From: Verrucomicrobiota bacterium
Lineage (GTDB): Bacteria; Verrucomicrobiota; Verrucomicrobiia; Chthoniobacterales; JAFAMB01
Direction: 5' to 3'
Assembly (NCBI GenBank): GCA_019247695.1
Contig: JAFBAP010000031.1
Location: 1 to 64,000 of the forward strand
Length of the DNA: 64,000 nucleotides
The first letter of the stretch is position 1; each line of letters opens with the position of its first letter. Below the pieces are notes generated by a model. The model did not search any database. It had not been told where the DNA came from and saw only the letters and a list, made by a program, of their open reading frames with translations. The position numbers and the translations under genes were made by a program. Of this stretch, positions 301 to 61,601 are shown piece after piece.

Positions 301-2499
301 TCAGGCCGGCTGGCTGACTGCGTCTTCGAGTTCACGCGGTTTGGAGGCGGCCTTGATCACGATTGGTTTGGCCTCAAGGTCCGGCCGCTTGCGCCGGGCG
401 ATCTGGTCGAGAAAATAGGCCTGCGCGTCAAACCGTTCCCCATGCGGATCGACAATGCGTTCATAGGTGAGACCTTTGCCTTGCTGCCGGGCCTTCACGT
501 TATCCCGCCAATAGACCTCCAGGATGTGCTCGAGCTGTTCCTTAAGCGCCGGTTCGTCAACCGGGAAACACGTCTCGACGCGTCTGAAGAAGTTCCGCGG
601 CATCCAATCGGCGCTCGCCAGATAGGTCTCGGACTGACCCCCGTTTTCGAAGCGGAACACCCGGCTGTGCTCCAGGAACCGGCCCACGATGCTGCGCACC
701 GTAATCCGTTCGCTTACTCCCGGGAGGCGGCTTCGCAGGCCGCACATGCCGCGGACCAGCAGCCTGATGTTCACTCCTGCCTGCGAAGCAGCGTATAACG
801 CCTGGATCACGTCCGGATCCACCAGGGCATTAAATTTTGCATAGATGCCCGCCGGTCTGCCGGCTTTGGCGTGTTCAGCTTCGCGTTCGATCATCGCGAT
901 CACAAAATCATGAAGGGCGTTGGGAGCGGCCTTGATCTTGGTGAGCTCCGGAAACACTGAGACGCCCGTCAGCCAGTTGAACAATTCCGCGCAGTCATTG
1001 GTCAGGACGGGGTCGCACGTCAGCACGCCGAGGTCAGTGTAGAGGTTGGCCGTCGATGGATGGTAATTGCCGGTACCAAGGTGGAGGTAGCGCCGGATAC
1101 CGTCTTCTTCCTTGCGTACCACCAGCGCCAGCTTCGCATGCGTTTTCAGGCCGACGATGCCGAACACGACGTGGACCCCGGCTTCCTGGAGCGTGCGTGC
1201 CCATTTGATGTTGGCCGCCTCATCAAACCGGGCCTTGAGTTCGATGACGACGGTAACCTGCTTACCGCTCTGCGCCGCCTCCGCCAGGGCGGTTACGATC
1301 GGCGAATCACCACTGGTCCGGTAAAGGGTTTGCTTGATGGCGAGTACGTTCGCGTCCTCGGCGGCCTGCTCGACGAAATCAAGAACGTTGTAAAAACTAT
1401 CGAACGGGTGATGCAACAAAATCGAGTGCCGGCGGATTTGGGCGAAAATATCTTCGTGGTCGCCGGTTCCGGTGACGATCCGAGGCACAAACGGCTTATA
1501 CTTAAGTTCAGGCCGGTCGACCGTGCTGATGATGGGCATTAGCCGCAGGAAATTGATCGGACCATCGGCCTTATAGAGGTCAGCGTTAGCCAGGCCGAAG
1601 GTTTGCAGCAACTGGCCGGCGATATGCTCGGGACAATCGCTTTGAACTTCCAGGCGGACCGCATCGCCGCGGCTGCGCTTGCGCAACTCGGTCTCGATCG
1701 CCTTCAGGAGGTTGGCGACTTCTTCCTCATCCAGGTACAGATCGCTGTTGCGCGTCACCCGGAACGGGTAAGCGCCTCGCACGGTGACGCCGTGGAAAAG
1801 CGAGTGCACGTGGGCCTGGATGAGGTTGCCGATAAAGATGTAACGATAGATGCCGCTCTCTCCGGCGCGGTACGGAAGCAGCCGTGGCAGGATGCGCGGG
1901 ACCTGGACCACGGCGAGATTGGTACTAAGCTCCTTGCCCTCCAGTTCGACGGCAACGTTCAGGCTTTTGTTGAGCAACTGCGGGAATGGGTGCACCGGAT
2001 CGACTGCCAACGGCGTCAGCACCGGGTAAACCGACGTTTGGAAGTAGCGGGTGTAATACTGTTTTTCTTCGCTGGTCAGTTCGTCCCAATGCAGAAATAA
2101 GACGTTTTGGTTTTCCAGCGCCGGCGCCAGATCCTCGTTCCAGAGCCGGTATTGGTCCGCAACCATTTTTCGAACCCGCCGCGCGATGGCGCTGAGCACC
2201 TCGCTGGGGCCCATGCAGTCCGGTCCGGTCTGGCTGACGTTGCTCAGCTGTTGTTGCCGGATCCCGGCAACCCGGATTTCGAAGAATTCGTCCAGGTTGG
2301 AGCTGACGATGCAAAGGAACTTCAAGCGCTCCAGGAGAGGGTTCGAGGTGTCCTGGGCTTCCTCAAGCACGCGTTGGTTGAACTCAAGCCAGCTCAGGTC
2401 GCGGTTGACGAAACGCTGAGGGTCACACACGGAAGGAGCGGGGTCCTGCGGGCTGGTTTTCTTTTTCGAGTGGTGAAGTTTGCGTCGTTGCGGTGACAT
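301..2499 (-). CDS. ppk: Polyphosphate kinase 1
   Basis: PPK1 reversibly transfers the terminal phosphate of ATP onto inorganic polyphosphate. The 732-aa protein has the family's normal length and order: an N-terminal helical domain (NRDLSWLEFNQRVL, residues 32-45), a head domain, and two phospholipase-D-like catalytic domains. The autophosphorylated histidine is H454 (KTHAK) and the second active-site histidine is H611 (EHSRVFRF). The first 28 residues are a basic extension of no evident function. It starts at an ATG; its stop codon abuts the intergenic repeat mosaic. No ppx or pho gene is adjacent, and the next gene upstream on this strand is a membrane peptidase separated by a terminator-like hairpin, so ppk is probably transcribed alone. 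Confidence 0.97.
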   Translation of the reverse strand: MSPQRRKLHHSKKKTSPQDPAPSVCDPQRFVNRDLSWLEFNQRVLEEAQDTSNPLLERLKFLCIVSSNLDEFFEIRVAGIRQQQLSNVSQTGPDCMGPSEVLSAIARRVRKMVADQYRLWNEDLAPALENQNVLFLHWDELTSEEKQYYTRYFQTSVYPVLTPLAVDPVHPFPQLLNKSLNVAVELEGKELSTNLAVVQVPRILPRLLPYRAGESGIYRYIFIGNLIQAHVHSLFHGVTVRGAYPFRVTRNSDLYLDEEEVANLLKAIETELRKRSRGDAVRLEVQSDCPEHIAGQLLQTFGLANADLYKADGPINFLRLMPIISTVDRPELKYKPFVPRIVTGTGDHEDIFAQIRRHSILLHHPFDSFYNVLDFVEQAAEDANVLAIKQTLYRTSGDSPIVTALAEAAQSGKQVTVVIELKARFDEAANIKWARTLQEAGVHVVFGIVGLKTHAKLALVVRKEEDGIRRYLHLGTGNYHPSTANLYTDLGVLTCDPVLTNDCAELFNWLTGVSVFPELTKIKAAPNALHDFVIAMIEREAEHAKAGRPAGIYAKFNALVDPDVIQALYAASQAGVNIRLLVRGMCGLRSRLPGVSERITVRSIVGRFLEHSRVFRFENGGQSETYLASADWMPRNFFRRVETCFPVDEPALKEQLEHILEVYWRDNVKARQQGKGLTYERIVDPHGERFDAQAYFLDQIARRKRPDLEAKPIVIKAASKPRELEDAVSQPA

Positions 2500-3666: not shown

Positions 3667-5106
3667 ATGGTCGGTCTGTTTGCCCAGTACGAGGAAGGTC
3701 CGTTTTTTGACGAGATGTTTGCTCCGGGGGGCCGCGTTCGCAGTCATTACCAGCGTCTCTACAACCGTTTTACCGAAATGAGCGCCGAAGACGTCACGCG
3801 CAAACACCTGGTCGCGGAGCGGGCGTTCATGACGCAGGGCGTTACGTTCACGGTCTACAACAACGAGCAGGGGACGGAGCGAATCTTCCCTTTCGACCTG
3901 ATTCCGAGAATCATTCCGGCTGCCGAATGGGACTTGATCGAGCGCGGCCTGACCCAAAGGATCACGGCGCTCAACTTGTTTCTGCGCGACATCTATCACG
4001 AGCAGAAAATCATTGCCGACAAGGTGATCCCGGAGGGAATCATACGGAGCGCGGTCCATTTCCGGCCGGAGATGGTGGGGCTTTCGGTTCCGAAAGACGC
4101 CTATATCCACATTTGCGGAACGGACCTCATCCGTGATGACCAGGGCCGCTACATGGTGCTGGAGGACAACGGGCGCTGTCCGTCCGGCGTTTCTTACCTT
4201 TTACAAAACCGGCAGGCGATGAAGCGGGTGTTCCCGAACCTTTTTGCCCGGTACCTGGTCCGCCCCGTCGATGCTTACGGCTCGGACCTGCTCAACCTTC
4301 TTCGCCACGTGGCCCCGGCCGGGACGGACGATCCGACGGTCGTGCTGCTCACGCCGGGAATTTACAATTCCGCTTACTTTGAACATTCATTTCTGGCCCG
4401 CAGCATGGGGATCGAGATCGTGGTCGGCGCCGACCTGCTCGTCCGGGACGACCGGGTCTGGATGAAAACGACTTCCGGCCTGAAGAAAGTGGACGTGATC
4501 TATCGACGGATCGATGACGACTTCCTGGATCCTAAGGTGTTCCGCAAGGAGTCCGTTCTGGGGGTGCCGGGGATCGTCGAGGCCTACCGCAAAGGCAATG
4601 TCAGCCTGGCGAACGCGATCGGCACGGGCGTGGCGGACGACAAGGTGGTGTACTATTTCGTGCCGGCCATGATCCGGTACTACCTGGACCAGGATCCGAT
4701 TCTGCCTAACGTCGAGACCTACCTTTCGTACTTTGACCAAGATCGGGCTTACATCCTCGAACACCTTGACCGGTTAGTCGTCAAGTCGGCTAACGAGAGC
4801 GGCGGGTACGGGATGCTGATGGGACCGCAGGCATCGGCCGAAGAGCGGGAGCGTTTTGCGCAGGCGATCCGGCAGAACCCGCGTAACTACGTCGCCCAGC
4901 CCATGGTGAGCCTGTCGCGGGTACCCGCCGTGTGTGAAGGCCGGGTGGAAGGCCGCCACATCGACCTGCGGCCATTCATCCTGTACGGGGACAAAATCAG
5001 CATCGTCCCGGGCGGGCTTACCCGCGTTGCCCTCAGGAAAGGATCCCTGGTGGTGAATTCCTCACAGGGTGGAGGCAGCAAAGATACCTGGGTGCTCCAC
5101 GAATAG
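3667..5106 (+). CDS. Circularly permuted ATP-grasp protein (DUF404/DUF407)
   Basis: This is a circularly permuted ATP-grasp enzyme of the COG2308 type. The family is predicted to form amide or peptide bonds using ATP; no substrate is established. From the ATG at 3667 the product is 479 aa and begins [18 protein letters not shown], close to the usual family N-terminus; the open frame continues upstream to 3469 but those 66 residues are low-complexity and GC-driven, so I reject them. Conserved segments visible are [33 protein letters not shown] and [14 protein letters not shown]. The next gene encodes the alpha-E partner, 93 bp downstream, so the two are probably one operon. The usual third and fourth partners (transglutaminase-like protease, proteasome-like hydrolase) are absent. 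Confidence 0.9.
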
Positions 5107-5199: not shown

Positions 5200-6180
5200 A
5201 TGCTTTGCCGAGTAGCCGACGCACTTTACTGGCTCAGCCGCTATGTCGAACGAGCCGAAAACAATGCGCGCATGCTGGACGTCAACCTCCAACTCATGCC
5301 TGACGCGCAGATGGTCAACAACGTAAACGTCGATCAGCTTTGGGAATCGATCATTTATTCTCTGGAAGATACGAAGCTGTTCCAGGGGCTCTACGCCGGG
5401 ATCACCGGGGATGCGGTGGTGGATTTTGTCATTTTCGAGCGACGCAATCCCAACTCGATTTATTCGTGTTTTACGCACGCCCGTGAGAATGCCCGCACCG
5501 TGCGCGAGCAGATTTCGACCGAGATGTGGGAACAACTGAACCGGATGTTTCTCCGCTTCCGTTCGGGAGATGCAGAACGGCTCTTTCGTTCCAGCAGCTT
5601 CGAATTTTTCACGTGGGTGGTCGAAGGCTGCCAACTGTTTAACGGCACGACCGATGCCACGATGTCGCACGACGAAGGCTGGGACTTCATTCAGGCGGGC
5701 AAATTCCTGGAGCGGGCCGACCGCACTTCACGCATTCTGGACATCAAGTACCACATCCTGTTGCCGAGCGGGGAACGGGTGGGCGGAAACGTAGATATGA
5801 CCCAGTGGATGGCGGTCCTGAAATCGTGCAGCGCGCTGGAACCGTACCGCAGGCATTACCGCGATCTCATCGCGCCGTGGAAAGTGGCGGAATTCCTCAT
5901 CAAGGACCAGAACTTCCCGCGCTCGATCCGGTTCTGCGCTGACCGTCTTGACCAGTCAATGCACGAAATCACCGGCATTGATCGCGCAGATCACCTTTAC
6001 AAGGTCGAAGCGGAACGGCTCTCGGGTAAACTGCTGGCCGACCTGTCGTTCATCAGCATAGGCGACATCCTGCGTACCGGGCTGCACGAATACCTTGACA
6101 CCGTCCAGTTGCGGCTCAGCGAGATCAACAATGGGATCCACAAGGCCTTTTGCGAATGGCTGGAAACGCCGGCGGCGTAA
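5200..6180 (+). CDS. Alpha-E domain protein (DUF403)
   Basis: The 326-aa product is an all-helical alpha-E (COG2307) protein, recognisable from its start MLCRVADALYWLSRYVERAE and from ERADRTSRILDIKYHILLPS. The family's biochemical role is not established; it nearly always accompanies the circularly permuted ATP-grasp enzyme encoded immediately upstream here, and the pair is predicted to make or attach a peptide-like product. Length is typical of the stand-alone form. No clear Shine-Dalgarno precedes the ATG, and an unusual tetranucleotide repeat lies in the gap. The stop codon is followed at once by the 6.2-kb repeat mosaic. Confidence 0.9.
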   Translation: MLCRVADALYWLSRYVERAENNARMLDVNLQLMPDAQMVNNVNVDQLWESIIYSLEDTKLFQGLYAGITGDAVVDFVIFERRNPNSIYSCFTHARENARTVREQISTEMWEQLNRMFLRFRSGDAERLFRSSSFEFFTWVVEGCQLFNGTTDATMSHDEGWDFIQAGKFLERADRTSRILDIKYHILLPSGERVGGNVDMTQWMAVLKSCSALEPYRRHYRDLIAPWKVAEFLIKDQNFPRSIRFCADRLDQSMHEITGIDRADHLYKVEAERLSGKLLADLSFISIGDILRTGLHEYLDTVQLRLSEINNGIHKAFCEWLETPAA

Positions 6181-6562
6181 AGGAATGCCACAAATGAGGA
6201 GTGGCGGGTAACGGGTAACGGGTAACGGGTAACGAGTGTCGGGTGTCGGGTCACAGGGCGGGCGCGGCGGGGTTGGCGGGCACAACGACTGAGTTCACAC
6301 GGCGACCACGGCGAGCCACGGCGACCACGGCGGAAAGAGGAAAGGGTTCGGAGTTCGCAGCGGCAGCATGGGGGATGCGAGTGCCAACCTTAGAGTTGCC
6401 GCCCGGTCCTCCTAATCTGTGTCAATCTGTGTAATCTGTGGATGTTTTCTCTTTTCTGCGTTCTCTGCGTGTTCTGCGGATGATTCTACCTTACCGCCGT
6501 GACCCGACGCCCGACACTCGACACCCGACACCCGCCACTCCTCCTCATTTGTGGCATTGTTC
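6181..6562. repeat. Composite intergenic repeat with inverted ends between convergent genes
   Basis: This 382-bp gap runs exactly from the stop of the alpha-E gene to the stop of the WD40 gene and has no gene. Left end: GGAATGCCACAAATGAGGAG, then seven heptamers (GGGTAAC x4, GAGTGTC, GGGTGTC, GGGTCAC; 6206-6254). Middle: CCACGGCGA words (6290-6344) and AATCTGTG/TTCTGCG words (6413-6487). Right end: heptamers GACGCCC, GACACTC, GACACCC x2 (6506-6533), then CTCCTCATTTGTGGCATTG, the inverse of the left end. The element thus has inverted terminal modules of roughly 25 bp plus inverted heptamer blocks. It could be a MITE-like insertion or a bidirectional 3'-end structure. Confidence 0.85.
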
Positions 6563-7774
6563 TTACCAGAACCACCAGTGCCGCTTAGGTTCGGTCCGGC
6601 GATGGGCGATCCGGGGTGGTTTGGGGCTCGGGCTGGGGCTGGGGCGGTGACGGCGCAAAGCGGCGGTTGGCGCCCGCTCGGCCGGACTTGATGGAGGCGT
6701 GGGTGCGTCGACCAAATGCTCGTCCGAGTGGGTGTTTTCCACGGCCGGCACCGCCCAGACCCAGATTTCCCCGGTATCACCCACGGCGGCAAGGTACCTG
6801 CCGTCCGGCGAGAAACGCACGGACCAGACCGGGCGACTGCTGTCCAGCAACGGGATCCGGTAGTCCATCTTAGGGTAAGGCACGAGGTTGACGTCGCCGT
6901 CCTCACCGCACGTGCACAACCAGTTCTGGTCAGGCGACCACGCCACGCGGCGCGCGCCGGAAACGCCCGATCCATGAACCTGGACCGAAGTGAGTTTGCG
7001 CCCTGAATCGGCCTGCCACACCAGGAGACGGCCGTCCTGGTGGGTGGTGGCGATCAGGCGCCCGTCCGGAGAGTAAACCGCTCCATTTACCTCATCCTGG
7101 CCATACCCGAACGGGGCCTTGTACCCGGACGGTATGTCTTTCTCTCGCCAGCGGATCTGGGATTGGGATACGTCAATGGCAGCCAGGTTAGAGCCGTCCT
7201 GCCCGGTTGAAACCGCGACGAAACCGCCCTTGGGAGACCAATCGAGGGCCAGCCCATTTCCGTCCAACTGAATTGAGGCCAACTGGGTACCGGCACGATC
7301 CCACAGCTTTACGAGGCCCGACTCGTCGACCGCCGCGAGAACGCTGCCCATCCGGGGTTCCCACGCGAGGTCCAGGACCCACGCGCCCTGGTTGAGGCGC
7401 CGCACGATTTTGCCGTCGGCCCACAATCGGATCACGCCGTCCCTGCCTCCGGAGGCGAGCGTACGGCCGTCGGGCGACCAGGCCAGGCCGGAAACCTCAC
7501 CCTGGTCGGCATGCAACTGCGCCTGTTCGAAGAAATCGGGACAGCGGTAGAGCCAGATGGTGTTACGGCCGCCGGCAGCCAGCGTACCTCCGTCCGGAGC
7601 CCAGGCGATGCTGTACAAAGCCACATCGAGTTTGCGCGTCCAGACTGGAACAATCGGTTCCTGGTGTTCAGGAAGGAGCGAGTCGTCCTCGCCACAAAAA
7701 CCGGGCTCGCAACCGGCACAAAACAACAAAAACCCTACCCAGCAACGAAGCAGTTTACCTGGCGGGGTCATCAT
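6563..7774 (-). CDS. Exported WD40-repeat protein
   Basis: The 403-aa product is a WD40 beta-propeller, a scaffold for protein interactions. Repeated blocks of the form (S/A)xDGRxLAxGGxDxxIxLW are seen, for example SPDGRTLASGGRDGVIRLW, SPDGRLIATTHQDGRLLVW and SPDGRYLAAVGDTGEIWVW, about seven blades in all. The N-terminus is a signal peptide (GKLLRCWVGFLLFCAGC); C22 could be lipidated, but Cys at the -3 position makes the lipobox weak. The last 50 residues are Pro/Ser/Arg-rich and probably disordered. It is a single gene between two convergent neighbours. Its binding partner cannot be inferred. Confidence 0.88.
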   Translation of the reverse strand: MMTPPGKLLRCWVGFLLFCAGCEPGFCGEDDSLLPEHQEPIVPVWTRKLDVALYSIAWAPDGGTLAAGGRNTIWLYRCPDFFEQAQLHADQGEVSGLAWSPDGRTLASGGRDGVIRLWADGKIVRRLNQGAWVLDLAWEPRMGSVLAAVDESGLVKLWDRAGTQLASIQLDGNGLALDWSPKGGFVAVSTGQDGSNLAAIDVSQSQIRWREKDIPSGYKAPFGYGQDEVNGAVYSPDGRLIATTHQDGRLLVWQADSGRKLTSVQVHGSGVSGARRVAWSPDQNWLCTCGEDGDVNLVPYPKMDYRIPLLDSSRPVWSVRFSPDGRYLAAVGDTGEIWVWAVPAVENTHSDEHLVDAPTPPSSPAERAPTAALRRHRPSPSPSPKPPRIAHRRTEPKRHWWFW

Positions 7775-19578: not shown

Positions 19579-20058
19579 ATGAAACGCTCCGCACTCACGA
19601 TCGCTTTCGCACTTCTGGTCTCCCTGGCGGCTTACGGGCAAAATCCGGTTGAGAACACGGGTCGCACTTTGGAAAAAGGTGCCAAGGCTACAGGTAGAAC
19701 CATTGAGCACGGTGCGCAGGCGACCGGCCGAACCCTCAAGCACGGCGCGCAAAGCACTGAGCGTACGATAAAGAAGGAGACCGGCGGCACCAGCAAATCC
19801 CGGCGAACGGCAAGCCACCACCGCCACCGCGCCACGACGAATACCGCGGCGAAAGCGAAAGCCAGCCCTTCGCCGGAAGCGAGCCCTTCGCCGGCCGCGA
19901 CGCCGGAAGCGACGCCTGCAACCACTCCGCTGACGACGCCCGCACCGGCGCCGGTGGCAACCCCCATGGCCACTCCTGTGGCAACCCCCATGGCCACTCC
20001 CGCGATCACGCCTGCAACGACTCCGGTTACGGAGCCAACCGCCACGCCGGGCACTTAA
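19579..20058 (+). CDS. Small secreted low-complexity repeat protein
   Basis: The 159-aa product starts with a clear signal peptide (MKRSALTIAFALLVSLAAYG). Then come four 11-residue repeats of the form GRTLEKGAKAT / GRTIEHGAQAT / GRTLKHGAQST / ERTIKKETGGT (about residues 27-70), a basic His/Arg patch, and a long Ala/Thr/Pro tail with ATPMATPVATPMATP repeats. The 11-residue period suggests an amphipathic helix of a LEA-like or membrane-binding kind; the tail is probably a disordered spacer. I do not recognise a family. It is divergent from the aminotransferase gene and convergent with rimO. Confidence 0.75.
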   Translation: MKRSALTIAFALLVSLAAYGQNPVENTGRTLEKGAKATGRTIEHGAQATGRTLKHGAQSTERTIKKETGGTSKSRRTASHHRHRATTNTAAKAKASPSPEASPSPAATPEATPATTPLTTPAPAPVATPMATPVATPMATPAITPATTPVTEPTATPGT

Positions 20059-46626: not shown

Positions 46627-46944
46627 GGCGGCCAGTGAAACGCCACAAATGCCACAAGCGGAAAAATGCCACGCATGACCGATTTCGGTTTGTAGATTGC
46701 CTGGCGTTCTTCGGCTCGTGGCATTGGTTCGCCTGCAACGATGAGGATGCCACAAGCGGTAAAACGGCATGGACGCCATGGATGACCGGCGCCCCAGCTG
46801 TGGCATCCTGCTTTACCACGCCGGTGGAATCTTTTGATTCCTCAGCCGTGTGGTGTCAGGGAGGGAGGTCCCGAATCAGGTACGCTTCCGCTTCTATTTG
46901 TGGCATTTTTCCGCTTGTGGCATTTGTAGCATTCCATCCACTCC
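46627..46944. repeat. Composite repeat with perfect 28-bp inverted repeat between convergent genes
   Basis: The gap runs from the stop of the sugar transferase to the stop of the C39-like peptidase and has no gene. A 28-bp sequence at 46645-46672 (starting ACAAATGCCACAAGCGG) is repeated perfectly in inverted form at 46900-46927 (starting GTGGCATTTTTCCGC), enclosing 227 bp. A shortened third copy (ATGCCACAAGCGG) lies near 46747. These are module A words of the dispersed family. The layout resembles a MITE with terminal inverted repeats, although no target duplication is evident. Confidence 0.88.
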
Positions 46945-49462: not shown

Positions 49463-49872
49463 CCGGTGCCGGGTTCGGAGTTCGGAGTTCGGAGCTCGGA
49501 GTTCGGAGGCGTCGTAGAACCGGGTCCGATCACCGCCGAGGGTCACGCTCACCGGGCGGGAAGACGGAATCATCCGCAGAACACGCAGCAAAGAAAAGAG
49601 CATCCACAGATTACACAGATTGACACAGATTAAGGTCACACGGCGGCCGTAGCGGGTGTAGCGGGCACGACGTAAGAGTTCACACGGCGAGCCACGGCGA
49701 CCACGGCGGGGAGAAGAGATACAGACTTGACGTCGGCGACTCTTCCCCAAGCTCGTGGCCGACACCCGTTAGTCGTTAGGCGCCACTTCTTCATTTATGG
49801 CATTTTTCCGCTTGTGGCATTTGTGGCATTCTCTGCCGCTCCGAACCCCGAACCCCGCACTCCGAACTTTCC
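49463..49872. repeat. Composite repeat with inverted heptamer blocks between convergent genes
   Basis: This 410-bp gap between the TraB stop and the pyk stop carries all four module types. Five GTTCGGA heptamers (one GCTCGGA; 49473-49507) open it and four inverted ones (TCCGAAC, CCCGAAC, CCCGCAC, TCCGAAC; 49840-49867) close it. Between them lie module D inverted (49567-49633, CATCCGCAGAACACGCAG...), module C (about 49634-49725), GACACCC-GTTAGTC heptamers (about 49760) and module A (49782-49832, TTATGGCATTTTTCCGCTTG). No gene is present. Confidence 0.85.
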
Positions 49873-52122: not shown

Positions 52123-53373
52123 TCAAGCCCGCGCCTCCGCGGTTTCGACCAGACGATCACGGCGGCGCAATTCCGGGAACCAGAGCATCCATAACCCAAC
52201 CACCAAGAGGGTGCCGAGCCCGCCGGCCACCACGGAGGGTACCGTCCCGATCAAGGCAGCGACGGTACCCGACTCAAACTCTCCAAGTTCATTTGAGGCG
52301 CCGATAAACACCGAATTCACGGCGGCAACCCGGCCGCGCATGGCGTCGGGCGTGTCGGCCTGGACCAGCGTTTGGCGGATGACCACGCTCACCATATCGG
52401 AGGCTCCGAGGACAAAGAGGAAGGGCAGCGCAAACGCCAGCGAAGGTGAAAGGCCGAATCCGATCGTGGCAAGCCCAAAGACGGCCACGGCTTGAAACAT
52501 GCGCAGGCCGGTCCGGCGTCCGAGCGGGCGGTGGGCGATGATGCCGGCCATCAAGAGTGCGCCCAGGGCGGGCATGCTCCGCAAGAGGCCCAGCCCCCAC
52601 GGGCCGGCATGATAAAGGTCACGCGCATAGATCGGCAAAAGAGCGGTTGCCCCGCCGAACAGCACGGCGAAAAGGTCAAGGCTGATCGCTCCGAAGATGA
52701 CCGGGCGCGCCCAGATGTAATGGATCCCGGCGACGAGCGTCTTCCAGGTGGTCTGGGACCGGGGCACCTGCTGGCGCGGCGTCCTGAGGAACACGAGGAG
52801 CAGCAGGCACACCAGAAAGAGTGCGGCCACGGCGCCGAAAACCATCGTACCGCCGAAGGCATAGAGCAGACCGCCCAACGCCGGGCCGGCCACGCTGGCC
52901 AGTTGCCAGGCGCTGGAACTTAACGCGATCGCATTCCCGAGGCGGCCGGGCTGCACAAGGTTCGCGAGGAGAGCTTGAGAAGCAGGGTTTGCGAAGGCCC
53001 TGGCTGAACCGATCAGCAAGGCCAGAACATAAAGCGGCCAGATTATGGCGATTCCCAGTGCAGTGAAACTGATCAACGCAAGTGCGCAGCCCGTCATCAC
53101 CCCGTAAGAGGCAAGGAGGATCTTCCGCCGGTCGATGACGTCAGCCAGGTGGCCGGTCACCAGGGCCAAGGCGACGCTGGGCAGAAAACCCATCAGGCCG
53201 ATGATGCCAAGCGCAAACGGGCGGTGGGACAACGAATAGACGAGCCAGCCCATGGCAACCGTTTGCATCTGCCAACCCAGGCCGCCCAGGAAACGCGCGC
53301 TCCAGAAAAGCGCAAAGTTGCGGTCCGCGAAGGCAGCCCAACCGCCGGTACCGGGGCGGGGGCCGGCCTTCAT
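52123..53373 (-). CDS. MFS transporter (MFS_3/EntS-like)
   Basis: From ATG 53373 the 416-aa product has 12 hydrophobic helices and the loop signature GHLADVIDRRKILLASYG. The start FADRNFALFWSARFLGGLGWQ is typical of the MFS_3 group that includes the enterobactin exporter EntS and putative macrolide exporters. Substrate not inferable. It lies upstream of the ACT gene with a 118-bp gap on the same strand. Confidence 0.9.
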   Translation of the reverse strand: MKAGPRPGTGGWAAFADRNFALFWSARFLGGLGWQMQTVAMGWLVYSLSHRPFALGIIGLMGFLPSVALALVTGHLADVIDRRKILLASYGVMTGCALALISFTALGIAIIWPLYVLALLIGSARAFANPASQALLANLVQPGRLGNAIALSSSAWQLASVAGPALGGLLYAFGGTMVFGAVAALFLVCLLLLVFLRTPRQQVPRSQTTWKTLVAGIHYIWARPVIFGAISLDLFAVLFGGATALLPIYARDLYHAGPWGLGLLRSMPALGALLMAGIIAHRPLGRRTGLRMFQAVAVFGLATIGFGLSPSLAFALPFLFVLGASDMVSVVIRQTLVQADTPDAMRGRVAAVNSVFIGASNELGEFESGTVAALIGTVPSVVAGGLGTLLVVGLWMLWFPELRRRDRLVETAEARA

Positions 53374-53679
53374 AAGGACGGCCAGGCGCACCTGAACGCG
53401 GCACCCCAGGCCGGCCCGACGGCCGGAAGGTGGCTTGCGCAGCCTGCCTTACCGGCAGGAAGCGGTGAGCGCAACGAAAAAATCTGCCGCATAGATCGGG
53501 AGTGCCGGACTGCCGGGCACCCGCCAACTAAACCCGGGAATCCCGCCGCTGGCAAACGCGGGACGGTAATTCCCGGCAGCCGGATCCGGGTACTCCCAAA
53601 ATGCTTGCCCCGGGCACCGGCCCACCCTGGCTTCGAGTTGCAAATCCTTCGTCGCAGTGCATGGTGAGCCCTCTTTGGC

Positions 53680-59778: not shown

Positions 59779-59921
59779 GGAGCGCTTAAATCATCACCGG
59801 TTTCGAATCGACGCAACCACTTTGTCACACGGGGGATTTGAGATGCCGGAAATTCCCCGACATGAAAAATCCCGCCACTGGCGGAAACCGAAGACCGGTA
59901 TCAATCCATGGCTTCTCCATT

Positions 59922-60024
59922 CGCGGCATTTTTCGGCTTGCGGCATTTGCGGTGTCCTGCCCGGAGCCTTGAATGCGGCTCAGTCATTTGTGGCATTTTT
60001 CCGCTTGTAGCATTTGTGGCATTG
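59922..60024. repeat. Two tandem module A repeats downstream of uvrC
   Basis: The 257-bp gap between the PBP2 start and the uvrC stop holds two same-direction module A copies. One is diverged (59922-59951, CGCGGCATTTTTCGGCTTG) and one is close to consensus (59985-60024, TTGTGGCATTTTTCCGCTTG). The second ends about 11 bases from the uvrC stop codon. Unlike the 6.2, 46.7 and 49.6 kb copies, the modules are not inverted here. Confidence 0.8.
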
Positions 60025-60035
60025 TCAAGCCGCTC

Positions 60036-61601
60036 TCACGACCGGCTTAGGAAGTGCACGACCGTTTCCGCGAGCCTCTCGTTGAGGCCGGCCGCCGCGG
60101 CAATTTCAGCCGCCGAGGCTTTCCGGAGCCGCTCCACGGACCCGAAGTGCTGAAGTAGTTTCTGTTTCCGGGTGGTGGAAATGCCCGGGCAATCATCCAG
60201 GATGCTCTCGCTGATCCGCCGTTTCATCAGCAACTGGTGAAAGCCGTTGGCAAAACGGTGCGCCTCATCCCGAATCCGCTGGAGCAGCTGCAACGCACCG
60301 GAATCGTCGGGGAGCTGCAACGGAACCGGACGGCCCGGCCGATAAATCTCTTCAAACTCTTTCGCCAGACCGATGATGGGCACATTTTCCAACCCGAGCC
60401 GTTCCATCTCGCGGCAGGCGGAGCTCAGCTGTCCTTTGCCGCCATCGACGATAACCAGATCAGGCAACCGCACTTGATGGTCGCTCCGCCCGACCCGGGC
60501 GAGCGCCTCGTCCACCGGTTCCTGGTCATATTCGGCAAGGTCCGGCCGGGCGGCGCGTCCCTCCATTAGGACCCGGGAGTAACGCCGTCGGATGACCTCG
60601 GCCATGCTGGCAAAGTCGTTCTGGCCCTCGACGGTCCGGATCCTGTACCGGCGGTAATTGGGTTTGTCGGGGACCCCGTTCCGGAAGCAGACCATGGAGG
60701 CCACGATGTGGGTCGTCGAGATGTTCGAGATGTCGAAGCACTCCATGAGCGCCGGCGGCGCCGGCAGTTGCAGGGCATCGGCCAGCGCCTTCAGGTCGGC
60801 CGCCGGATCCACCGTGCTTGGAAGCGTTTTGCGGGTAAAACGGCGCATCGGCTTCGTGGTCCGCCGCAGGTCCTCAAGCATGTTGCGGAGTTCGGCCGCC
60901 TTCTCGAACTCGAGCTTGGCCGCGGCGCTCCTCATCTCCTCCTCGAGTTCCTTGAGCAATTCGGCGGTGCGACCGTCAAGAAACTCACAGGCGCGCAGGA
61001 CTCGTTCCTTGTATTCTTCGAGGCTTACCTTGCGGATACAAGGCGCTGAACAATTTTTGATGATGTGGTCCAGGCAGCGCCGGTAGTCAGTTTCCCCCGG
61101 CTCAGCCACCCGGCAGGAGCGCAGCCCGAACTCCTTGCGCATCCAGTTAAGGGTACTCCGGAGCGACCCCGAATGCGCGAAGGGACCAAAGTAGCGGCAC
61201 CCGTCATCCTGGCGGAAGCGGGTAAGCTGGAACCGGGGGATGGGATCGTTCAGGTTAACCTTGACGAGCAAAAAACGCTTATCATCCCGGAAACTGATAT
61301 TGTATTTCGGCCTATATTCCTTGATCAGCTTACCTTCCAGCAGGAGCGCCTCAGGCTCGTTGCGGACCACGTGAAGTTCGAAATCCCATACCGAATCATA
61401 CAGGGCGCGATTCTTGAGATCGGCTTTCTGCTGGTTTGATGGGAGAAAGTGCTGGGCGAGGCGTTTGCGCAGGTCGCGTGCTTTGCCGACGTAGATGACG
61501 CGGTTCAGCCGGTCCTTCATGAGGTAAACGCCCGGCTTATGCGGAACTTCATGCAGCCGTTTGGTCAGGTCAGGCCTCTCATTCAGAACCACAGGCTCCA
61601 T
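60036..61601 (-). CDS. uvrC: Excinuclease ABC subunit C (UvrC)
   Basis: UvrC makes both incisions in nucleotide excision repair. The 521-aa product has the GIY-YIG nuclease domain (KPGVYLMKDRLNRVIYVGKA, about 22-41), a cysteine-bearing linker (ADLKNRALYDS), the UVR motif (about 220-255), the RNase H-like domain (DLVIVDGGKGQLSSACREM) and tandem HhH at the C-terminus. It is about 80-90 residues shorter than E. coli UvrC, mostly in linkers, with the domains all present. Confidence 0.95.
   Translation of the reverse strand: MEPVVLNERPDLTKRLHEVPHKPGVYLMKDRLNRVIYVGKARDLRKRLAQHFLPSNQQKADLKNRALYDSVWDFELHVVRNEPEALLLEGKLIKEYRPKYNISFRDDKRFLLVKVNLNDPIPRFQLTRFRQDDGCRYFGPFAHSGSLRSTLNWMRKEFGLRSCRVAEPGETDYRRCLDHIIKNCSAPCIRKVSLEEYKERVLRACEFLDGRTAELLKELEEEMRSAAAKLEFEKAAELRNMLEDLRRTTKPMRRFTRKTLPSTVDPAADLKALADALQLPAPPALMECFDISNISTTHIVASMVCFRNGVPDKPNYRRYRIRTVEGQNDFASMAEVIRRRYSRVLMEGRAARPDLAEYDQEPVDEALARVGRSDHQVRLPDLVIVDGGKGQLSSACREMERLGLENVPIIGLAKEFEEIYRPGRPVPLQLPDDSGALQLLQRIRDEAHRFANGFHQLLMKRRISESILDDCPGISTTRKQKLLQHFGSVERLRKASAAEIAAAAGLNERLAETVVHFLSRS

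Follow-up and report, generated by a model that had tools for sequence, protein, structure and literature searches.

A gap of 382 bp between two convergent genes, with ends that mirror each other, raises the question of what kind of DNA fills it and by which processes its two arms were made alike. The gap lies in a stretch of 64,000 nucleotides (the window) at the start of a contig of a Verrucomicrobiota genome (G000; 5.19 Mb in 191 contigs), which was compared with a congener, G001, the MAG 'Verrucomicrobiota bacterium isolate CP_BM_RX_22' (86% complete, about 470 contigs; locus L234 is 100% identical to a G001 locus over 3978 bp). Gene borders are those of a gene caller written for this analysis. 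The 382-bp element is best read as neither a gene, nor a structured RNA under visible selection, nor a fresh transposon insertion; it is probably an inherited intergenic mosaic repeat of a genus-wide family, homogenised by template switching at hairpins and by recombination among its copies. Its parts and flanking genes are the following.

5200 to 6180, + strand: flanking gene for an Alpha-E domain protein (PF04168); upstream of it lies a circularly permuted ATP-grasp gene (3667 to 5106)
6181 to 6562, no strand: the intergenic mosaic element as a whole, identical in extent to the convergent gap; an orthologue exists in G001
6184 to 6201, + strand: end module A, left copy (AATGCCACAAATGAGGAG), 3 nt inside the left stop codon
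6205 to 6253, + strand: left heptamer array (GGGTAAC x4, GAGTGTC, GGGTGTC, GGGTCAC)
6249 to 6502, + strand: interior cassette, about 76-90% identity, common to 39 other scored places in G000
6298 to 6332, + strand: 9-mer array CACGGCGAC, module P
6346 to 6359, + strand: GTTCGGA heptamers, module Q; the unit count varies widely among copies
6360 to 6402, + strand: small inner stem-loop GCGGCA...TGCCGC, conserved among copies, with no compensatory changes
6413 to 6440, + strand: 9-mer array AATCTGTGT, module N, of a type found across the phylum
6454 to 6479, + strand: 9-mer array TTCTGCGT, module M
6499 to 6538, - strand: right heptamer array, mirror of the left (heptamers at 6499-6534: GGGTGTC x2, GAGTGTC, GGGCGTC, GGGTCAC, read on the - strand)
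6541 to 6558, - strand: right copy of end module A, matching the reverse complement of the left one at 18/18 positions, 4 nt inside the right stop codon
6563 to 7774, - strand: flanking gene, WD40 beta-propeller protein

Bounded by the stop codons TAA at 6178-6180 and TTA at 6563-6565, the element takes up the convergent gap exactly, as had been claimed in the initial annotation. The mirrored ends described there are likewise present, namely as a perfect 18-bp inverted repeat (by hand estimate, about 1e-6 would be expected by chance within 382 bp) followed inward by the heptamer arrays, and the claimed difference in heptamer type holds for the outer units, the right array containing no GGGTAAC. 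Between the left and right arrays, 86% pairing is found over 36 nt, and both arms have a common register and a common GAGTGTC variant. The further claim that the symmetry lies in architecture more than in copied sequence was only half right, because the two inverted ends are perfect copies of each other and, in both arms, the end module is followed by the spacer AGGAG..TGGCGGG; this spacer was found nowhere else among 95 end-module contexts (2/95).

The 382-bp stretch is one of many elements and not unique. Relatives of its core occur at no fewer than 40 scored places in G000, the window's own included, with 104 aligned pieces; this is a lower bound, as 40 places were scored among 540 first-look candidates in that genome. 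The end module CNCATTTGTGGCAT, searched with at most one mismatch, gave 257 matches in G000 as opposed to 1 for a reversed control, and a similar 13-base end-module pattern gave 372 matches in G001 as opposed to 3 for the control. Paired inverted ends recur as well: 66 end-paired elements were extracted from loci of the two genomes, which disposes of the possibility, raised in the initial annotation, that no other copy has such ends. Four further family elements lie in the window itself.

1 to 300, no strand: further family element, with about 12 units in its GGGTGTC-type array; it runs to the stop codon of the gene at 301 to 2499 (- strand)
46627 to 46944, no strand: further family element, filling another convergent gap
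49463 to 49872, no strand: further family element, filling a third convergent gap
59835 to 60035, no strand: further family element, located in a tandem (--) gap directly next to the stop codon of the gene at 60036 to 61601

The counterpart of the 59835-60035 gap in G001 also contains an element, which is filled differently. As position 1 of the window is also that of the contig, the latter opens either at the edge of the element at 1-300 or within it. Several other draft contig ends of G000 and G001 (e.g. L161, L174, L227, L229) lie within or near elements, so that assemblies appear to break at them. Elsewhere in the window, a perfect two-copy 24-bp tandem repeat is found at 19954-20000 inside a long intergenic gap (687 bp).

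The internal order of the elements was described with six module types annotated in intergenic gaps, the definitions, letters and orientations of which were made for this analysis: A, H (GGGTAAC/GGGTGTC), P (CACGGCGAA), Q (GTTCGGA), N (AATCTGTGT) and M (TTCTGCGT). These few modules recur across 186 gaps of G000 and G001 loci with at least three modules each, duplicate gaps having been removed solely by identity or containment. In G000, pairs pointing inward outnumber those pointing outward by 83:2 for A, 287:19 for H, 926:6 for P and 241:8 for Q; the corresponding values in G001 are 104:1, 10:5, 3:0 and 1:0. Modules N and M have the opposite sign (inward:outward 1:13 and 0:13 in G000, 0:12 and 0:6 in G001), their signs being read from the same data, i.e. 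fixed after these had been seen. Both neighbouring genes were known for 137 gaps, those with an unknown neighbour being left out of the orientation, stop/start-distance and mirror counts, and 132 of them were scorable as holding modules of both signs. The modules are mirrored about the gap centre in 127 of these 132, and they are so in every gene arrangement (+-, 40/40; -+, 24/26; ++, 27/28; --, 36/38). The layer order is partly strict in G000, where A lies outside H in 50:6 cases, P outside M in 45:7 and Q outside M in 24:3, while H outside P is mixed (35:31). Each element is built like an onion, with the genus-specific module A outside, followed by G-rich heptamers and then by 9-mer arrays and a central cassette. 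A second type of interior cassette, about 130 bp inside an inverted pair, was observed in L031, L033, L038, L039 and L053 of G000 and seems common to several gaps (L031 and L033 are 90% identical).

The mirror count also bears on simple drift, by which two unrelated arrays grown by slippage would be symmetric by chance or through their base composition. Such an origin would agree with the differing numbers and types of heptamers at the two ends, but as a whole explanation it is refuted by the exact 18-bp end repeat, the private spacer common to both arms and the mirrored order of nearly all scored gaps, and we give it next to no weight.

Module A in tandem form was found in two of 197 genomes of the order, both from this genus. 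Among 387 genomes of the phylum, 100 contain the module N type (AATCNGNGTAATCNGNGG), as opposed to 1 control match. In one distant genome (G313), module N occurs in gaps alongside other tandem phrases, and the mirror rule was not evident in the nine gaps inspected there by eye. The gaps of this distant member of the Verrucomicrobiota (loci L275-L293) are packed with short tandem phrases of other kinds, such as CGCAGATTA, CGGACGGAT and GTCCACAAT.

With respect to the neighbouring genes, the median distance of the outermost module is 7 nt on sides facing a stop codon (n=149) and 48 nt on those facing a start codon (n=119; p=5e-14). Convergent gaps are enriched among the module-bearing gaps of G000 (28/83 with modules versus 11/73 without, p=0.009), but not significantly so in G001 (12/54 versus 6/40, p=0.44). 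Taken together, the closeness to stop codons and the orientation counts make the exact fill a rule at gene ends, for which the convergent setting is favoured, yet not required. A role of module A as a marker of gene 3' ends only was considered and rejected, as 56 of the 120 scorable A modules lie off the stop side (131 modules in total, the other 11 being inside a called gene or without a neighbour).

Alternatively, the long hairpin could be a selected structure at transcript ends, one that terminates or shields the two convergent mRNAs, the GGGTAAC quadruplexes serving as a further signal. The tight fit of the elements to stop codons and the convergent enrichment in G000 are in line with this explanation, as are the folding of the whole gap (z -7.9 as RNA and -8.4 as DNA, with 0/100 shuffles as good in either case) and a putative G-quadruplex in the left heptamer array, where the pattern fits 6206-6229. 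It is at odds, however, with the missing significance of the enrichment in G001 and with several negative results: a terminator-like site was not found in 6100-6640, a promoter and terminator pattern scan of the element region yielded none, and an Rfam search of the window returned no described RNA family. Moreover, compensatory changes were found at 0/41 predicted pairs of a consensus RNA structure of 20 copies, namely that of the window and those of 19 loci, picked out of the other 29 core-relative loci as holding most of the core. Because the elements occur in all four gap types under the same mirror rule, they do not follow transcription, and a selected transcript-end structure is regarded as very unlikely.

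Comparison with G001 indicates that the sites of the elements are fixed, while their interiors are rewritten. The Alpha-E and WD40 genes are 89% and 84% identical, respectively, and the gap between them in G001 is shorter than that of G000 and lacks a P array; its contents are module A, heptamers, the 9-mer modules N and M and a mirrored A-like end. The conserved frame assumed in the initial annotation is therefore supported, as the same kind of end module encloses a different filling in the same gap. Altogether, eight orthologous gaps were paired, namely the 382-bp gap and seven more. Five of them (the 382-bp gap and four others) came from unconditioned searches, in which no element in G001 was presupposed, and all five carry an element there; the remaining three were obtained by comparing module-bearing loci of both species and are uninformative on absence. 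The latter comparison also gave two one-sided flank matches (L111/L029 and L129/L008). The remaining elements of the window, as well as others in L241 and L242, are outside the comparison, since the G001 contigs end or stop aligning there.

Within a genome, the copies are homogenised. The best other G000 element outscores the G001 orthologue in seven of the eight orthologous pairs, and 80 of 106 other G000 gaps do so in the case of the 382-bp element, although the shorter G001 gaps lower the G001 bit scores in this comparison. Two sites of the N-M block differ between the species, one with C in 46/57 cases in G000 versus 6/33 in G001, the other with T in 53/57 versus 11/33. At the Alpha-E/WD40 locus, the G001 block keeps the G000-like C at the diagnostic site, which argues against full homogenisation. 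A separate difference between the two genomes was seen at 53368-53611 of the window, where about 240 bp in and near a divergent gap, free of modules, are present in G000 and absent from G001.

The paired ends might alternatively identify the elements as non-autonomous mobile DNA of the MITE or REPIN type. In that case, the A modules would be terminal inverted repeats served by a transposase from another locus, and the inner cassettes would be further mobile elements that had entered the loops of older ones, giving rise to the onion. Apart from the A modules at both ends of the 66 elements, the P cassette has mirrored ends of its own (GGTCACACGGCGG...CCGCCGTGTGACC) and occurs in some gaps without A or H (L013), and the full cassette has multiplied in G000, where 40 gaps carry P in both orientations, but is rare in G001, with 1 such gap. 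Transposase genes of the Y1 type are present too, two of them in G000. On the other hand, target duplications were found in 0/66 elements (abutting direct repeats of at least 2 nt; 1.3 expected by shuffling), empty sites in none of the five unconditioned orthologous G001 gaps, and the interiors between the A modules vary from gap to gap. Module A is absent near both Y1 loci; the repeat that surrounds the RAYT-like one is another, CCCTGAAGGGGC. We therefore hold an origin as mobile DNA to be unlikely, and a RAYT as the mover was rejected, since neither of the two Y1_Tnp genes in G000 has A nearby. The RAYT-like gene is located at about 14742-15080 of L093 (G000:C153), amid another repeat family (CCCTGAAGGGGCGGCAGA, CCCAGGGTTTACCCTGGG); at about 62262-62624 of L092 (G000:C19) lies an IS605-like pair consisting of TnpA and an adjoining TnpB-like gene, named by eye.

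The preferred explanation, an inherited mosaic repeat, draws further on the likeness of the arms. In G000, the two arms of an element resemble each other more than they resemble the arms of other elements (27 elements, mean 54.3 versus 34.1, reached in 0/5000 permutations), whereas this likeness is weak and not significant in G001 (26 elements, 41.0 versus 38.6, 507/5000 permutations). An identical irregular heptamer array private to L048 of G000 is present in both of its arms. Together with the private spacer of the 382-bp element, these observations argue for copying from arm to arm, with slippage on top. The independent slippage proposed in the initial annotation is thus a part of the answer, fitting the variable heptamer numbers, but arm-to-arm copying and replacement from other loci are needed in addition, so that its interpretation of the inverted ends is partly supported.

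A mechanism may be envisaged in which, as the DNA is replicated, the mirrored arms form a hairpin or cruciform and the polymerase switches templates between them, copying variants from one to the other. Such quasipalindrome correction would correspond to the template-switch mutation that makes the arms of imperfect inverted repeats alike, as described in the part of the literature available to us (PMC8604942). Slippage would alter the heptamer numbers, and ectopic recombination or gene conversion among the many copies would replace the interiors; any effect on flanking transcripts would be a side effect. The comparison of two genomes gives no ancestral state for the presumed template switching and gene conversion. 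We propose that the elements reach stop codons because nothing needs to be kept there, whereas they keep a distance from start codons owing to the promoters, which have to be preserved. A bolder and quite unlikely version would be that of self-renewing mirror elements without a transposase, which share a small dictionary of 7- and 9-mers, are symmetric in gaps and are copied from one hairpin arm to the other and from locus to locus by replication and recombination enzymes alone; clades would then have their own outer modules around the phylum-wide inner type AATCNGNGTAATCNGNGG.

Intergenic DNA is usually read as a neutral spacer or as regulatory sequence. A strict mirror rule independent of gene direction, combined with fixed sites and fast rewriting within a genome, points instead to a process acting on the DNA itself. 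The elements preserve, in a natural bacterial setting, a record of template switching at hairpins and of concerted evolution. They may also explain breaks between genes in draft assemblies of such genomes.

No earlier description of this repeat family was found in the literature searched, including searches with the module sequence strings. The closest known description found is that of the inverted GGGAATC heptamers of Xanthomonas (PMC4692102). As far as the available portion of that report extends, the Xanthomonas GGGAATC and Nostoc GGGGA(C/T)T repeats are G-rich heptamer arrays, dispersed and mostly intergenic, which form inward-pointing pairs in 70 and 75 cases, lie on average 28 nt from the end of the 5' neighbour ORF and 160 nt from the next ORF, and in most cases have the same flanking genes in two species, while varying strongly in length and sequence; few stand between divergent genes, and their function was not found. 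The H heptamers of the present family resemble the Xanthomonas type in forming inward pairs in gaps; of quadruplex formation, another trait by which that type was compared, the sequence pattern at 6206-6229 is present. They differ from it in their units, GGGTAAC/GGGTGTC as opposed to GGGAATC or GGGANTN, and the accessible text describes one heptamer type in Xanthomonas and Nostoc, while the present family combines several types of heptamer and 9-mer modules with central cassettes and an end module specific to the genus. Arms that share private variants are likewise a feature of the present family, unlike the repeats as described in that portion of the report. The Xanthomonas case, with the same signs and no function given by its authors, could be re-read in the same way.

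Other known repeats were compared with the accessible parts of their descriptions. The TAACTGA repeats of Beggiatoaceae (PMC4679880) are also abundant intergenic heptamer arrays of unknown role, but they are direct repeats, which in the Guaymas genome mostly directly precede start codons, whereas the arrays here are inverted and tend to avoid start codons. Quasipalindrome template switching (PMC8604942, PMC7202029) is, in the available accounts, a mutation process and not an element family, and would have the role suggested above. Of the marks of a MITE, the terminal inverted repeats are found, whereas target-site duplications (66 elements) and empty sites (five unconditioned gaps) are not. 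The NIMEs of Neisseria (PMC3898611), which have been suggested to favour recombination, are similar as intergenic mosaics bounded by short inverted repeats in hundreds of copies. Their dRS3 is a 20-bp unit with the motif ATTCCC(N8)GGGAAT, which is absent from 6181-6562, and, unlike the NIMEs as far as described, the whole gap here is one mirror structure of tandem arrays. The REPINs and BIMEs with RAYT (PMC3116915) resemble the family as extragenic inverted doublets that fold as hairpins and have many copies, but module A is not a self-palindromic REP, has no RAYT nearby and encloses interiors that are not constant; read directly, the end module AATGCCACAAATG does not contain the GTAG or CGTC tag that the accessible part of another report ascribes to palindromic REPs (PMC3733652). 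NIMEs and REPINs therefore share parts with the family, yet fail their defining tests here, and the family belongs to the previously known kind of intergenic repeat mosaics, in the form of a new variant.
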